From assembly GCA_910822395.1 (NCBI GenBank), contig OU365335.1, positions 744,001-808,000 on the forward strand: a DNA stretch of 64,000 nt. Direction: 5' to 3'. The stretch's first letter is position 1. Every line of letters begins with the position of its first letter. Both the position numbers and the translations under genes were made by a program. Below, one piece after another: positions 59,249-64,000 of the stretch. The notes under the pieces were generated by a model. It made no database searches. It was not told the origin of the DNA and saw only the letters and a list, made by a program, of their open reading frames with translations. Source of the DNA: Pseudoclavibacter triregionum (lineage in GTDB: Bacteria; Actinomycetota; Actinomycetes; Actinomycetales; Microbacteriaceae).

Positions 59249-60862
59249 CTACTCCCCGACGTCGACGCCGAGATCCGCGAGGATGCGGTTGAGGTCGTTG
59301 ACGGCCGCGAAGTCGATGACGATCTGGCCCTTCGTCTTGCGGAGCGAGATGCGGACGCGCGTGTTGAGGCGGTCGCCGAGCCGCTCGGCGCAGTCGTCGA
59401 GGTAGCCGGTGAGGCCGCCCGTCTTCTTGCGAGGAGCGCCCGCACCGGGGCGCGTGCTCGCCTGCTTCGAGGCGGCGGCCTCGGCGGCCCGGACGGAGAG
59501 GTCCTCGTTGACGATCTTGTCCGCGAGCTGCGTCATCGCGGCGGGCTCGCCGACGCTGAGGATGGCCCGCGCGTGGCCGGCCGAGAGGACGCCCGCCGCC
59601 ACGCGGCGCTGCACCTCGACCGGGAGCTTGAGGAGGCGGATCGTGTTCGAGATCTGCGGACGCGAGCGGCCGATGCGCTGGGCGAGCTCCTCCTGGGTGA
59701 TCCCGAAGTCGTCGAGCAGCTGCTGGTAGGCGCTCGCCTCCTCGAGGGGGTTGAGCTCGGCGCGGTGGATGTTCTCGAGGAGGGCGTCGCGGAGCATGTC
59801 CTCGTCCGCCGCCTCGCGCACGATCGCGGGGATCGCGTCGAGGCCCGCCGCTCGGCTCGCCCGGAGGCGACGCTCGCCCATGATGAGCTCATAGTCGGCG
59901 CGGTCGGCGCTCGGGTGGTCGGCCGGGATGCTCCGGACGACGATCGGCTGGAGCACGCCGAACTCGCGCACCGAGGTGGTGAGCTCGGCGAGGGCGTCCT
60001 CGTCGAACTCGTGGCGCGGCTGCTTGAGGTTCGGAGCGACGCGGCGCGGGTCGAGCTCGATGAGCCGGATGCCGGGGACCTCGACGAGCTCGGGGCCATC
60101 GGTCTCGGCGTCCGCGTCGTCCGAGACGTCGTCGCCGAGGTCGACGGTGTCGGCGTCGGTCGCGGGGAACGGCTCGAAGTCCGGAGCGTCGCCGGCCTCG
60201 GCGACCTGGCCGGACGCGCCGACATCGCCCGCGGCCTCGGCGACCGCGCCCGAGCCGCTGGCAGCTGCGGCCATCCCCTCCTCGCGCTCCTCGGTCTCGA
60301 CGGCGCCGGGAGCGCCCGTCGCCGCCTCCCCCCCGCGCGCGGCCTGCGCGAGCTGGGCGGCCGCCTCGGCGGCCTTCTCCTCCACGATCGCCGCGGCGAC
60401 GGTGGCCCGCTTGGCGCGCTTCGGCTTGGCGGTCGTCGCCTCTGCGGTCGTCGCCTCTGCGGGCTGCGCATTGTCGATCGGCGACTCCGATCCGGCGTCG
60501 ACCCGCCCCGCTCCTGCGGCTGCGGTGGTGCCGGTCGCCTTGCCGCGCGCGGCACCGCGCGCTCCGCCCGATCGGGACGACGCGCGTCGCGCCGCCGCAG
60601 CACGAGCCGGGCCGTCGAGCTCGCCGAGGAGCGCCGCCGCGGCGGACGAGCGCGTCGCCGGCTTCCCGGCATCCGCCTGCCCGGAGGCCCCCGCGTGTGC
60701 ATCGGCCTGCGTCGATTCTTGTGTGCCCGGGAAGAAGACGTCCACGGGTCGATCAGAGCGGTCCGGACGGGCCGGGTAGGCGGCCGCGGCCGGCTCCGCC
60801 GGCTTCGTGGGGATGAGGGCGCCGATGCCCCGTCCGAGTCCAGAGCGCTTCTTCGTGGCCAT
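59249..60862 (-). CDS. parB: Chromosome partitioning protein ParB with very long linker
   Basis: A 537-residue ParB. Residues 1-18 (KRSGLGRGIGALIP) are the ParA-activating peptide. About 240 residues of Ala/Glu/Asp/Arg-rich disordered linker follow (residues ~20-258), versus a few tens in most ParB. From residue 260 comes the CTPase/ParB fold with GERRLRASRAAGL, then the helix-turn-helix TQEELAQRIGRSRPQISNTI that reads parS, and the C-terminal dimer domain (RISLRKTKGQIVIDF). Three bases after parA. Confidence 0.94.
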   Translation of the reverse strand: MATKKRSGLGRGIGALIPTKPAEPAAAAYPARPDRSDRPVDVFFPGTQESTQADAHAGASGQADAGKPATRSSAAAALLGELDGPARAAAARRASSRSGGARGAARGKATGTTAAAGAGRVDAGSESPIDNAQPAEATTAEATTAKPKRAKRATVAAAIVEEKAAEAAAQLAQAARGGEAATGAPGAVETEEREEGMAAAASGSGAVAEAAGDVGASGQVAEAGDAPDFEPFPATDADTVDLGDDVSDDADAETDGPELVEVPGIRLIELDPRRVAPNLKQPRHEFDEDALAELTTSVREFGVLQPIVVRSIPADHPSADRADYELIMGERRLRASRAAGLDAIPAIVREAADEDMLRDALLENIHRAELNPLEEASAYQQLLDDFGITQEELAQRIGRSRPQISNTIRLLKLPVEVQRRVAAGVLSAGHARAILSVGEPAAMTQLADKIVNEDLSVRAAEAAASKQASTRPGAGAPRKKTGGLTGYLDDCAERLGDRLNTRVRISLRKTKGQIVIDFAAVNDLNRILADLGVDVGE

Positions 60863-60864
60863 GG

Positions 60865-61788
60865 CTAGCGGTCTCCTCGCTGTGCGATCTCGAGGGCGGC
60901 TTCGCGGTAGGCGACGGCTCCGGTCGAGGTGGGGTCGTACGTGATGACGGTCTGCCCGTAGCTCGGTGCCTCCGAGACGCGGACGGATCGCGGGATGGAG
61001 CGGTCGAGGGTCTCGTCCGCGAAGTGGGTGCGGACCTCCTCGGCGACCTGCTGCGAGAGGTTGGTGCGCCCGTCGAACATCGTGAGGAGGATCGTCGTAA
61101 GGCGCAGCTCCGGGTTGAGGTGCTCGGAGAGCAGATTCACGTTGCTGATGAGCTGGCTGAGTCCCTCGAGCGCGTAGTACTCGCACTGGATCGGGATGAG
61201 CACCTCGCGCGCGGCCACGAAGGCATTGATGGTGAGGAGTCCGAGCGAAGGCGGGCAGTCGATGAAGATGTAGTGGAACATCGACGTGGGTGAATCCGTC
61301 TCGGCGAGCAGTCTTGCGATGGCCTGGCGCAGGCGGTATTCGCGGTGCTCGAGGTTCACGAGCTCGATCTCGGATCCGGCGAGATCGAGGGTGGCCGGCA
61401 CGCCCCAGAGGTTCTCCAGGTCAGGACTCTGCTGCATGAGCTCGCTGAGCGGCTCGGAGTCGATGAGCGCCTCGTAGGAGCCGGCGATGTCGCCTCGATG
61501 CTCGATACCGAGCGCGGTCGAAGCGTTTCCCTGGGGGTCGAGGTCGATGACGAGGACCCGGGCGCCCTGCTCGGCGAGTGCGGCGGCGAGGTTCACGGCC
61601 GTCGTGGTCTTGCCCACGCCGCCCTTCTGGTTGGAGACCGTGAAGATGCGCGTGTGGTCCGGCAGCGGAAACTCGGCAGCGGAGAGGCGCTTCCGTCGGC
61701 TCGCGAGGTCCGCGAGCTCTCGCGCGATCGGCGAATCCTCCAGATCGGGTGCGGATTCGGTCGCCGGTGTGTTCTTCTTCGTCGCCAC
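60865..61788 (-). CDS. parA: Chromosome partitioning ATPase ParA
   Basis: A 307-residue deviant-Walker ATPase: KGGVGKTTTAVNLA with the signature lysine, LVIDLDPQGNAS and FIDCPPSLGLLT. GTG start at 61788 chosen for its adjacent GGAGGA. It moves ParB-parS complexes. An N-terminal extension of ~45 residues precedes the fold. Confidence 0.95.
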   Translation of the reverse strand: MATKKNTPATESAPDLEDSPIARELADLASRRKRLSAAEFPLPDHTRIFTVSNQKGGVGKTTTAVNLAAALAEQGARVLVIDLDPQGNASTALGIEHRGDIAGSYEALIDSEPLSELMQQSPDLENLWGVPATLDLAGSEIELVNLEHREYRLRQAIARLLAETDSPTSMFHYIFIDCPPSLGLLTINAFVAAREVLIPIQCEYYALEGLSQLISNVNLLSEHLNPELRLTTILLTMFDGRTNLSQQVAEEVRTHFADETLDRSIPRSVRVSEAPSYGQTVITYDPTSTGAVAYREAALEIAQRGDR

Positions 61789-61844
61789 GCATCCTCCAGA
61801 GTCAGGTCCCACGATTCTGCCGTACCGGTCGTTCCATTCTGGGA

Positions 61845-63328
61845 TGTTTCACGTGCAACAGGCCACCCGTGCCCTCCCCAACTGTGGATGACTTGCTCAC
61901 AGCTGTGCACGGATCTTGACGGGATTCCCTCTAGGGCGCGGATTTCGCTGTGCACTCCTGGTGCATCGAAGGACCGGCGCCCTCCCGATCCTTGCACATC
62001 TCAGCAGTTCCACGTGGAACATGCCCACTCTCTCTCGCGGCAGACGACGCTGCCCGGAAGGAACACTGCTCCCTCGCATCGGCGATCTGGTCGCTGTCGG
62101 GGCCAAGACCGACTCCCGAGCGTGCGAAGGCGGCGATGTCCACGCGCGTTCCACGTGAAACGTGAGGATACGACGTCCACGAACTCCCTAGCGACGACAC
62201 CGCGTTGGCATCCTTCGAGGAGGCGGATTCCACGGCGCCCTTGCGTATCTGCGCCGTCCGAATCGACCACCAGGTGAAGGTCTTCAGTCAGCGCGCTTGA
62301 TGCCGGCGGCTGACCCGCAAACGTGAATGGCGTGTGGCGCGTGGTTGCACTTCGGCGGCGCGGTGGCCGCATTCCACGTGAAACACAGATTGCGAGAGTC
62401 GTGCGAACGCGTTCCCAAGGCACCGCCTTGTACCGGGCTGACTGCTCGGACCTCCCACGTACTTCTGAGCTCGAGCTGTTCCACGTGAAGCGGGATCGCG
62501 GTTGGCGGAGGTCGACGACATCGTCACGGAGCCACTCGCGATCAGATTCATCGCCAGAGGGATCGGCCTACTGGGACGAGTCGGCCGTGCCGGTGGGAGC
62601 CGCCATATCGCTGACCAGCATGTTGCGGGCGGGCCCGCTTCACGTGGAACGTCATGCTCTGAGAGCGTGGAAGGGAGCTCAACGTCTCAGCACGGTTGCG
62701 GAGTAGGCCTGACCGCTCGCCACCTACGCAGACGCCGGCAACCAGTTTCACGTGCAACCACGCGCCGGTCATCCCGACAATGGAACCCCTCTGATCACCG
62801 ATCGCCCTGTGCCCGGAGACCACATCAGAGAGCTTCGGTCGTTCAGCGGCGATGTCCCAGCCGTCTGGGCCGCCAATAGCCACCGCGGCATCCCCGGACG
62901 TTGTCGGACCAGGACGACGTGGGAATGGTGGCGTAACCAACGATCCCGTCATTCCCGTTCCACGTGGAACATCGCTGACACCCGACAAACCCGGTCGCGG
63001 GTCGAATCATCCACGCGCCGGACAACAGCCATCGCGCACTGACGCAGGCCAAGTCCACGAGTCCGCTCTTCCGAAGGTGGAAACGCGAATCCGAAGTGAT
63101 GTTTCACGTGTAACGTCGCGCCCCAGCGGGGCTCATACCATCGAACCCGGTGGCGGCTGAACACCGTCGAGCGCTCGGCAAGGCGCGAGCTCTACGGCGG
63201 CGAAGTCTAGAAGCGACGCAGCCGGGCAGCGCGGCCATGGGCCCAACTGACTCCTCGCCACCGGATCACCCGGCGTCCAACAGCGGTGACGACCTCAGGC
63301 GACGGAGAACCACGTTCCACGTGAAACT
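61845..63328. other. Array of ten parS-like sites in a 1.74-kb gene-free region
   Basis: Sixteen-mers with a central CACGTG at 61845 (TGTTTCACGTGCAACA), 62006, 62147, 62370, 62477, 62636, 62744, 62956, 63100 and 63313. All are variants of the parS consensus TGTTTCACGTGAAACA. The best are 61845 (one mismatch) and 63100 (two). Four carry the symmetric or half TTCCACGTGGAA/TTCCACGTGAAA form. Gaps are 107-223 bp. No open frame in 61813-63553 has convincing coding character. ParB would load here next to its own operon. One DnaA-box-like TGTGGATGA is at 61883. Confidence 0.85.
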
Positions 63329-63553
63329 TCGCAGCCCGCTCACATCGCGCGCCGGGAAACCGAGGACGGAAGTCCAACATCCCTGAGCCAGCCTCTCTAC
63401 GCTGGCGGTCGTGCATGGCTCGTGTGACGTCGCCTTCCACGCCCAGATCGCATGCGAGCACTGAAGCCATGGGGTCAACGGCAGTCGCCCAAGGACGGCT
63501 TCACCGGCGGATCCTGGGGACAATACCCGCCCGCATATCGACCGCTCTAGATG

Positions 63554-64000
63554 CTACTCAACGCGGGCGCGAACGACGCGGGTCGGCTCCGTGTCGAGAT
63601 CCGCACCGAGCTCCTCGACGCGGACGTCCACCAGGCCGAACTTGCGGATCGGCTTGGCTGCGGCCTCGATCTCCGCCGCAGCCGACTTGCCCTTGAGCAG
63701 CACGAGCTCGCCACCGTGCACGAGCAGCGGCACCGCGAGGGGGATGAGCTTCGAGAACGCGGACACCGCCCGAGCCGTAACTTGATCGACGGTGATCGAA
63801 TCATGGACCTCTTCGGCCCGCGCCCGCACGATCGTCACGTTGTCGAGTTCGAGGCGATCGACGCAGCGCTGGAGCCATTCGACGCGGCGCTCCATTGGCT
63901 CGATGAGCGTGAACTCCAGATCCGGCCGGGCGATCGCGACAGGGATGCCGGGCAGGCCGGCACCCGACCCGAGATCCGCGACGCGTCCCAAGAGCAGGGG
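63554..64000 (-). CDS. rsmG: 16S rRNA (guanine527-N7) methyltransferase, truncated by window edge
   Basis: The C-terminal ~148 residues of RsmG/GidB; the start lies beyond base 64000. The SAM-binding motif VADLGSGAGLPGIPVAI and IEPMERRVEWLQ are present. It methylates G527 of 16S rRNA; loss gives low-level streptomycin resistance. Normally it follows yidC/jag and directly precedes parA, here separated from it by the parS array. Confidence 0.93.
   Translation of the reverse strand, partial: PLLLGRVADLGSGAGLPGIPVAIARPDLEFTLIEPMERRVEWLQRCVDRLELDNVTIVRARAEEVHDSITVDQVTARAVSAFSKLIPLAVPLLVHGGELVLLKGKSAAAEIEAAAKPIRKFGLVDVRVEELGADLDTEPTRVVRARVE

Follow-up and report, generated by a model that had tools for sequence, protein, structure and literature searches.

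A compact array of ten parS sites between parA and rsmG, a probable chromosomal centromere in Pseudoclavibacter triregionum

In ParABS systems, parS is described as the place where ParB is loaded as a CTP clamp, from which it slides along DNA and bridges it; ParA moves ParB, and SMC is recruited (PMC7333895, PMC10387095). A ParABS review names two open questions: why parS numbers differ although a single site is often enough, and what causes the sites to cluster in the course of evolution (PMC7333895). The locus described here holds ten parS sites in one intergenic gap upstream of parA, and it raises the question of what such an array does and how it came about. The window that was analyzed is a 64,000-nucleotide stretch (G000:C1:744001-808000) of a genome assembled as one contig of 2.36 Mb with a completeness rating of 90.29%. 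We argue below that the array is very probably the chromosomal centromere of the organism, that is, a compact parS array for ParB loading, probably grown by duplication.

The ten parS sites and the parAB locus

The whole 2.36-Mb genome was scanned with the pattern GTTYCACGTGRAAC. Exactly 10 places were found with at most one mismatch, and all 10 lay inside the parA-rsmG gap (window positions 61846-63327, a span of 1.48 kb), with spacings of 161, 141, 223, 107, 159, 108, 212, 144 and 213 bp (Table 1). The initial annotation had reported ten near-consensus parS palindromes in 1.48 kb; each of them was recovered at its position, and the genome-wide scan that it had proposed as a check gave no site beyond the gap at this threshold. 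Six further places with exactly two mismatches were found in the genome, none of them in the gap (two lie 24 bp apart near 1977 kb and the remaining four are single). When up to three mismatches were allowed, the pattern matched 120 places per strand, fewer than the 167 obtained with a reversed-pattern control, and this level was therefore regarded as noise. All ten CACGTG hexamers of the gap belong to parS sites with at most one mismatch.

Table 1. Features of the parAB locus and positions of the ten parS sites in the window
Feature	Position	Strand	Sequence	Remarks
parB	59249..60862	-		537 aa counted from the ATG; N-terminal GLGRG and core PNxxQPR motifs 269 residues apart
parA ORF	60865..61812	-		315 aa
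Non-coding parA-rsmG gap holding the array	61813..63553	.		1.74 kb
parS 1	61846..61859	.	GTTTCACGTGCAAC	1 mismatch; upstream of the parA ORF, 34 bp from its first start codon (GTG); the real start may be further inside
parS 2	62007..62020	.	GTTCCACGTGGAAC	0 mismatches
parS 3	62148..62161	.	GTTCCACGTGAAAC	0 mismatches
parS 4	62371..62384	.	ATTCCACGTGAAAC	1 mismatch
parS 5	62478..62491	.	GTTCCACGTGAAGC	1 mismatch
parS 6	62637..62650	.	GCTTCACGTGGAAC	1 mismatch
parS 7	62745..62758	.	GTTTCACGTGCAAC	1 mismatch
parS 8	62957..62970	.	GTTCCACGTGGAAC	0 mismatches
parS 9	63101..63114	.	GTTTCACGTGTAAC	1 mismatch
parS 10	63314..63327	.	GTTCCACGTGAAAC	0 mismatches
rsmG, 3' part (continues beyond the window)	63554..64000	-		TIGR00138 above cut-off, on L057:9554-10231

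The sites vary in their cores, and the initial annotation had set the C-core variants apart as types of their own. This distinction was weakened, because the same cores occur in published parS sequences, namely the optimal B. subtilis site used in vitro, TGTTCCACGTGAAACA (PMC8299390), and the consensus of the M. xanthus cluster, TGTTCCACGTGGAACG (PMC3899335). The C-core types were thus rejected as a novel ParB specificity class, and differences in affinity among the variants are possible.

The gap was otherwise free of recognizable genes, as had been claimed from the letters alone. Its median codon-phase contrast was 0.09 versus 0.45 in parA, rsmG and jag, its G+C content was 64% versus 72% across the window, and the low-phase run that includes it is longer than any other in the window (2.1 kb; the runner-up was 1.0 kb). 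A Pfam scan of 10 gap ORFs gave matches for 2 only, both under the curated cut-offs, and an Rfam search of the gap gave no match at the gathering thresholds; on these results and the codon phase, the idea that the gap conceals a gene or an RNA was rejected. Scans of the gap for terminators and consensus promoters found nothing, the promoter null being weak evidence either way.

The gene order is parB-parA-[array]-rsmG-jag-yidC-rnpA. In the profile search, rsmG and yidC scored above the cut-off, and jag and rnpA were matched below their curated cut-offs; a DnaA-like ORF past rnpA, recognized by eye without a family search, starts ∼4.4 kb from the array. The ParB of the window has a ParB/Spo0J domain and matched TIGR00180 with 185.6 bits (cut-off 58.45). 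A GERR motif, a helix-turn-helix and a putative N-terminal ParA-binding peptide were located in it by eye from the alignment. By eye, the DNA-binding region is conserved across 33 aligned ParBs. The ParA, a Walker ATPase, adjoins parB and has an orthologous match at E ≤ 1e-80 in 295 of 299 genomes of the family; against the NCBIfam equivalogs, it scored below the cut-off among the matches listed (25 of 29), for example 103.9 versus 180 for NF041546. Thus, parS near parAB, a ParB with its domain and motifs, and a ParA beside parB were all found, as in a type I chromosomal ParABS system, and the ten sites in 1.48 kb form a compact parS cluster (at least 10 sites within a few kb).

Junctional parS sites across the Microbacteriaceae

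To place the array among its relatives, 116 parA loci of 82 genera were surveyed, with extra loci taken on purpose from parS-rich genera. The family was taken to be Microbacteriaceae, in line with the named loci among the ParA matches (Homoserinibacter, Leucobacter and Microbacterium). The rsmG-parA gap, measured at 113 loci, was shorter than 300 bp in 66, 300-999 bp in 17 and at least 1 kb in 30. The view of the initial annotation that rsmG and parA are almost adjacent in most relatives is therefore partly right, in a sample weighted toward parS-rich genera. Both the jag-rsmG and the rsmG-parA junctions were shorter than 300 bp at 55 of 111 loci; parS was present in at least one junction in 54 of these compact loci, and in both junctions in 38. 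Because compact loci mostly carry single junctional sites, an ancestral locus with roughly one parS at each junction is suggested, from which the arrays would be expansions of one junction.

At least six sites in one junction were found at 19 loci: eight in the genus of the window (g1), six in its sister genus g21 (support 1.0), three in g85 and one each in g51 and g56. Judged by eye on the tree, the arrays of g85, g51 and g56 seem to have expanded separately. A long gap need not contain an array, given that ten surveyed loci with an rsmG-parA gap of at least 1.5 kb hold just 2-4 sites. In density, the locus of the window (10 sites in 1.5 kb) ranked second of 113; G255 has 11 and the median is 2.

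Within g1, a parS cluster was found at the parA locus in 8 of the 10 genomes searched. Six of them carry the array between rsmG and parA (gaps of 1.7-7.1 kb, 10-18 sites), and two, G299 and G234, carry it between jag and rsmG (8.4 and 4.7 kb, with 12 and 9 sites). All six sampled g21 genomes have jag-rsmG arrays of 8-20 sites. Overall, the array gaps of the two genera measure 1.7-8.4 kb and contain 8-20 sites, and most of them lack coding signal. Wherever the locus was found in the sampled members of these genera, an array was present; it is not peculiar to the genome of the window. G300 and G302, also of g1, showed neither a parA match nor a parS cluster, and the locus is probably missing from them through assembly gaps.

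Codon-phase contrast was also measured in 17 gaps with arrays from g1, g21 and g85. The medians were 0.07-0.16 versus 0.28-0.45 in the flanking genes, and 13 of the 17 gaps had no scanning window above 0.3. Such windows were seen in three g85 gaps (5-9% of windows) and in G020 (27%). The jag-rsmG gap of G020 (L070) contains long coding-like ORFs within its parS array, one of which resembles an IS256-type transposase by eye.

Helical phasing of the ten window sites was tried and rejected (maximum Rayleigh R of 0.66 near 10.4-10.5 bp, p 0.12 after the period scan). In other arrays, p was 0.074 for the g1 relatives, 0.948 for g85 and 0.556 for g51. A g21 signal at 9.7, which was reached by 0 of 500 randomisations, probably comes from the tandem repeats of that genus.

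Two other arrangements were observed in the survey. Dispersed parS (9-21 sites) occurs in G005, G151, G202 and G247 (g6) and in G133 and G186 (g71), scattered over tens of kb where the contigs permit judgement; G247 is in ∼130 contigs and its spread is uncertain. In g17, the exact consensus was absent from five of six sampled genomes and present as a single site in one; both junctions of L143 (G016, g17) were free of parS, and the helix-turn-helix region of its ParB differs from that of a relative, so that loss of parS or an altered ParB specificity is possible.

Spacer turnover, tandem units and the ParB linker

The DNA between the sites was compared among the g1 genomes. In G188 and G274, rsmG, parA and jag are 91-95% identical in nucleotides, and 463 of the 6317 bp of the gap (7%) fell in alignments of at least 45 bp; in three further g1 pairs with genes 78-88% identical, 2% of the gap aligned. 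The spacers thus appear to turn over fast while the parS sites persist. The pair G000 and G136 (0 of 1745 bp aligned) was dropped from this argument because its genes are just 74-80% identical, at which neutral spacers are not expected to align.

Tandem units of 150-170 bp were visible in two sister-genus arrays, and in both they keep parS while their flanks diverge. The identity was 0.943 in parS and 0.690 in the flanks over five aligned units of G255, and 0.964 and 0.653 over four aligned units of G100; the parS values are biased upward by a scan that demanded parS with at most one mismatch, although the runs are evenly spaced with no skipped unit, which counts in favor of the comparison. 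Elsewhere in G255, double-length spacings of 284 and 303 bp may mark lost sites. In addition, CACGTG outside parS occurred 54 times in the 17 gaps, twice the 27.2 expected from base composition, with flanks nearer to parS than random positions (1.74 versus 1.29 of 4), which is consistent with decayed parS sites. The array of the window itself showed no tandem repeat and no spacer homology above shuffles (2.8% of 72 comparisons above the null 95%), and for this reason we infer, rather than observe, that it arose by the same duplication. Near-equal spacings in the window (213/212, 144/141, 108/107 and 159/161 bp) were rejected as duplication relics, given that the spacers lack homology beyond shuffles; about two such pairs are expected by chance according to a rough hand estimate.

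The same tandem units, together with a copy number that ranges from 8 to 20 among the g1 and g21 arrays, would also be produced if one functional parS were enough and the extra sites had accumulated non-adaptively, through tandem duplication in intergenic DNA that tolerates them, and a single parS does suffice in C. glutamicum (PMC7083940). We consider this unlikely, since identity between units is 94-96% in parS and 65-69% in the flanks (the upward scan bias applies), every CACGTG of the window gap is a parS site, and arrays occur in every sampled genome of a fully supported clade in which the locus was found. Retention of the sites for ParB loading at a centromere is the reading that we prefer.

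The ParB linker, measured from GLGRG to PNxxQPR, is in the window the longest of 110 (median 60 residues), and by composition count it contains 13% order-promoting residues versus 31% in the core. Linker length was compared with genome-wide parS number over these 110 loci, six of the 116 (L151, L154, L155, L156, L159 and L166) having been dropped as unmeasurable. The Spearman coefficient was 0.746 in this sample, which is enriched for parS-rich genera; it was 0.66 without g1 and g21 (96 loci) and 0.56 without five genera (84 loci). Independent contrasts on a tree of ParA, the ParB core and RsmG gave r 0.274 (p 0.0038, sign-flip p 0.0008), and r 0.17 (p 0.075) when the five largest linker contrasts were removed. 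The test is post hoc, the idea having arisen on seeing the g1 and g21 ParBs, and it uses exact-pattern counts, by which the genome of the window enters with 4 sites, not 10 (the counts of G299 and G301 were taken from their listed exact matches). Among the control traits, no association was seen for ParB core length, ParA tail or locus GC, and a weak negative one was seen for the length of the Jag open frame (contrast r -0.24, p 0.014).

Twelve further named loci with a measurable linker gave a Spearman coefficient of 0.86 between linker length and locus parS, in a sample of 13 hand-picked from 80, partly for high parS. Linker residues and parS sites were 192/15 in Microbacterium gubbeenense, 168/9 in Arthrobacter, 164/7 in Actinotalea and 30/1 in Lysinibacillus, with Microbacterium MYb54 (64/6) as an exception; four named loci that were compared with the survey loci had a parA identity of at most 87% to any of them. 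In the M. gubbeenense locus (L190), the 15 parS sites occupy 4.6 kb on the upstream side of parA, in an rsmG-parA gap of 7.7 kb with 20% of windows coding-like. A Corallococcus locus (L220) pairs 10 sites with a short ParB (open frame of 326 aa versus 537 aa in the window), so the link is not universal. We regard the rise of parS number with linker length as a lead from sequence comparison.

Taken together, these patterns may point to a bacterial counterpart of satellite-type centromere evolution, an idea that we put forward tentatively and with less than even confidence: in several lineages, one of two junctional parS sites would have expanded into a gene-poor array, with spacers turning over far faster than genes, parS kept by selection, and the low-complexity N-terminal linker of ParB co-evolving with parS number, perhaps to bridge or condense a denser complex. 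Among the matches listed from the open-licence literature, no title or abstract opening dealt with parS tandem duplication or with ParB linker length versus parS number.

Function of the array and comparison with known systems

The initial annotation had proposed a dedicated ParB-loading platform near the origin. Such a platform, presumably near the origin, fits the unique clustering of the sites, the intact parA and parB, the conserved DNA-binding region of ParB and the persistence of parS amid spacer turnover, and is the role that we propose. At each parS, a ParB dimer would bind and form a closed, CTP-dependent clamp that moves onto neighboring DNA by sliding. With ten loading sites packed into 1.5 kb that lacks coding sequence, the outcome would be a dense, bridged ParB-DNA complex, which ParA would move in segregation. 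In vitro, the condensation force was reported to grow as parS sites became more numerous, and the minimum required in the assay lay between 5 and 7 sites (PMC8299390); the ten sites of the gap would exceed this minimum. The complex may also load SMC, which is the least secure part of the proposal because a modelling paper states that separated sites, rather than one cluster, may favor SMC loading (PMC10387095). The source of the array was probably a single parS at the rsmG-parA or the jag-rsmG junction; tandem duplication of parS-bearing units would have enlarged it, selection keeping the sites while the spacers decayed.

The position of parS 1 just upstream of the parA ORF, and the frequency of junctional parS at loci with both junctions short (54 of 55), would also suit a regulatory device, in which ParB would either use the sites as operators to tune the parAB promoter or be titrated by them as by a sink. 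We judge this improbable, as the arrays of g21, G299 and G234 are placed upstream of rsmG and hence at a distance from the parA promoter region, and an operator would presumably need fewer than ten sites over 1.5 kb; the empty consensus promoter scan of the gap weighs little either way. Chance palindromes or a composition artefact can be dismissed almost with certainty, since the sites are confined to one gap genome-wide, where base composition predicts 0.0004 sites and 200 shuffled palindromes of the same make-up as parS gave none.

The arrays form a natural series, with parS numbers from one in a junction to 20, two alternative junctions, visible stages of duplication and a matching change in ParB. 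In such a series, the questions of parS number and clustering can be tested both comparatively and, in relatives that can be cultivated, experimentally.

Among the matches listed from the open-licence literature on Microbacteriaceae and parS, nothing related was found by title or abstract opening. The compact parA loci of the family share the order parB-parA-rsmG-jag and the parS core with the window; in contrast to these loci, with both junctions below 300 bp, the window has one junction expanded to ten sites. C. glutamicum, like the present organism an actinobacterium with ten parS sites, has them near the origin, nine of them intergenic, spread over 35 kb and 73 kb from oriC (PMC7083940), whereas those of the window lie in one 1.48-kb stretch. 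According to the same report, one parS is enough for wild-type-like growth, so ten sites need not matter much. Single parS clusters seem to be commoner on plasmids (PMC10387095). A likeness is also seen with M. xanthus, where 22 parS repeats lie in 3 kb, ∼4 kb upstream of parA, and the cluster DNA was bound by its ParB in vitro (EMSA; PMC3899335): both clusters are compact and have the same core with C-type halves, although M. xanthus belongs to another phylum and the array of the window is immediately upstream of parA. In the Corallococcus locus, all 10 sites found are one identical 14-mer, whereas the sites of the window vary. The compact parS array is thus already known as a kind from M. 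xanthus, and the array described here adds a further example.
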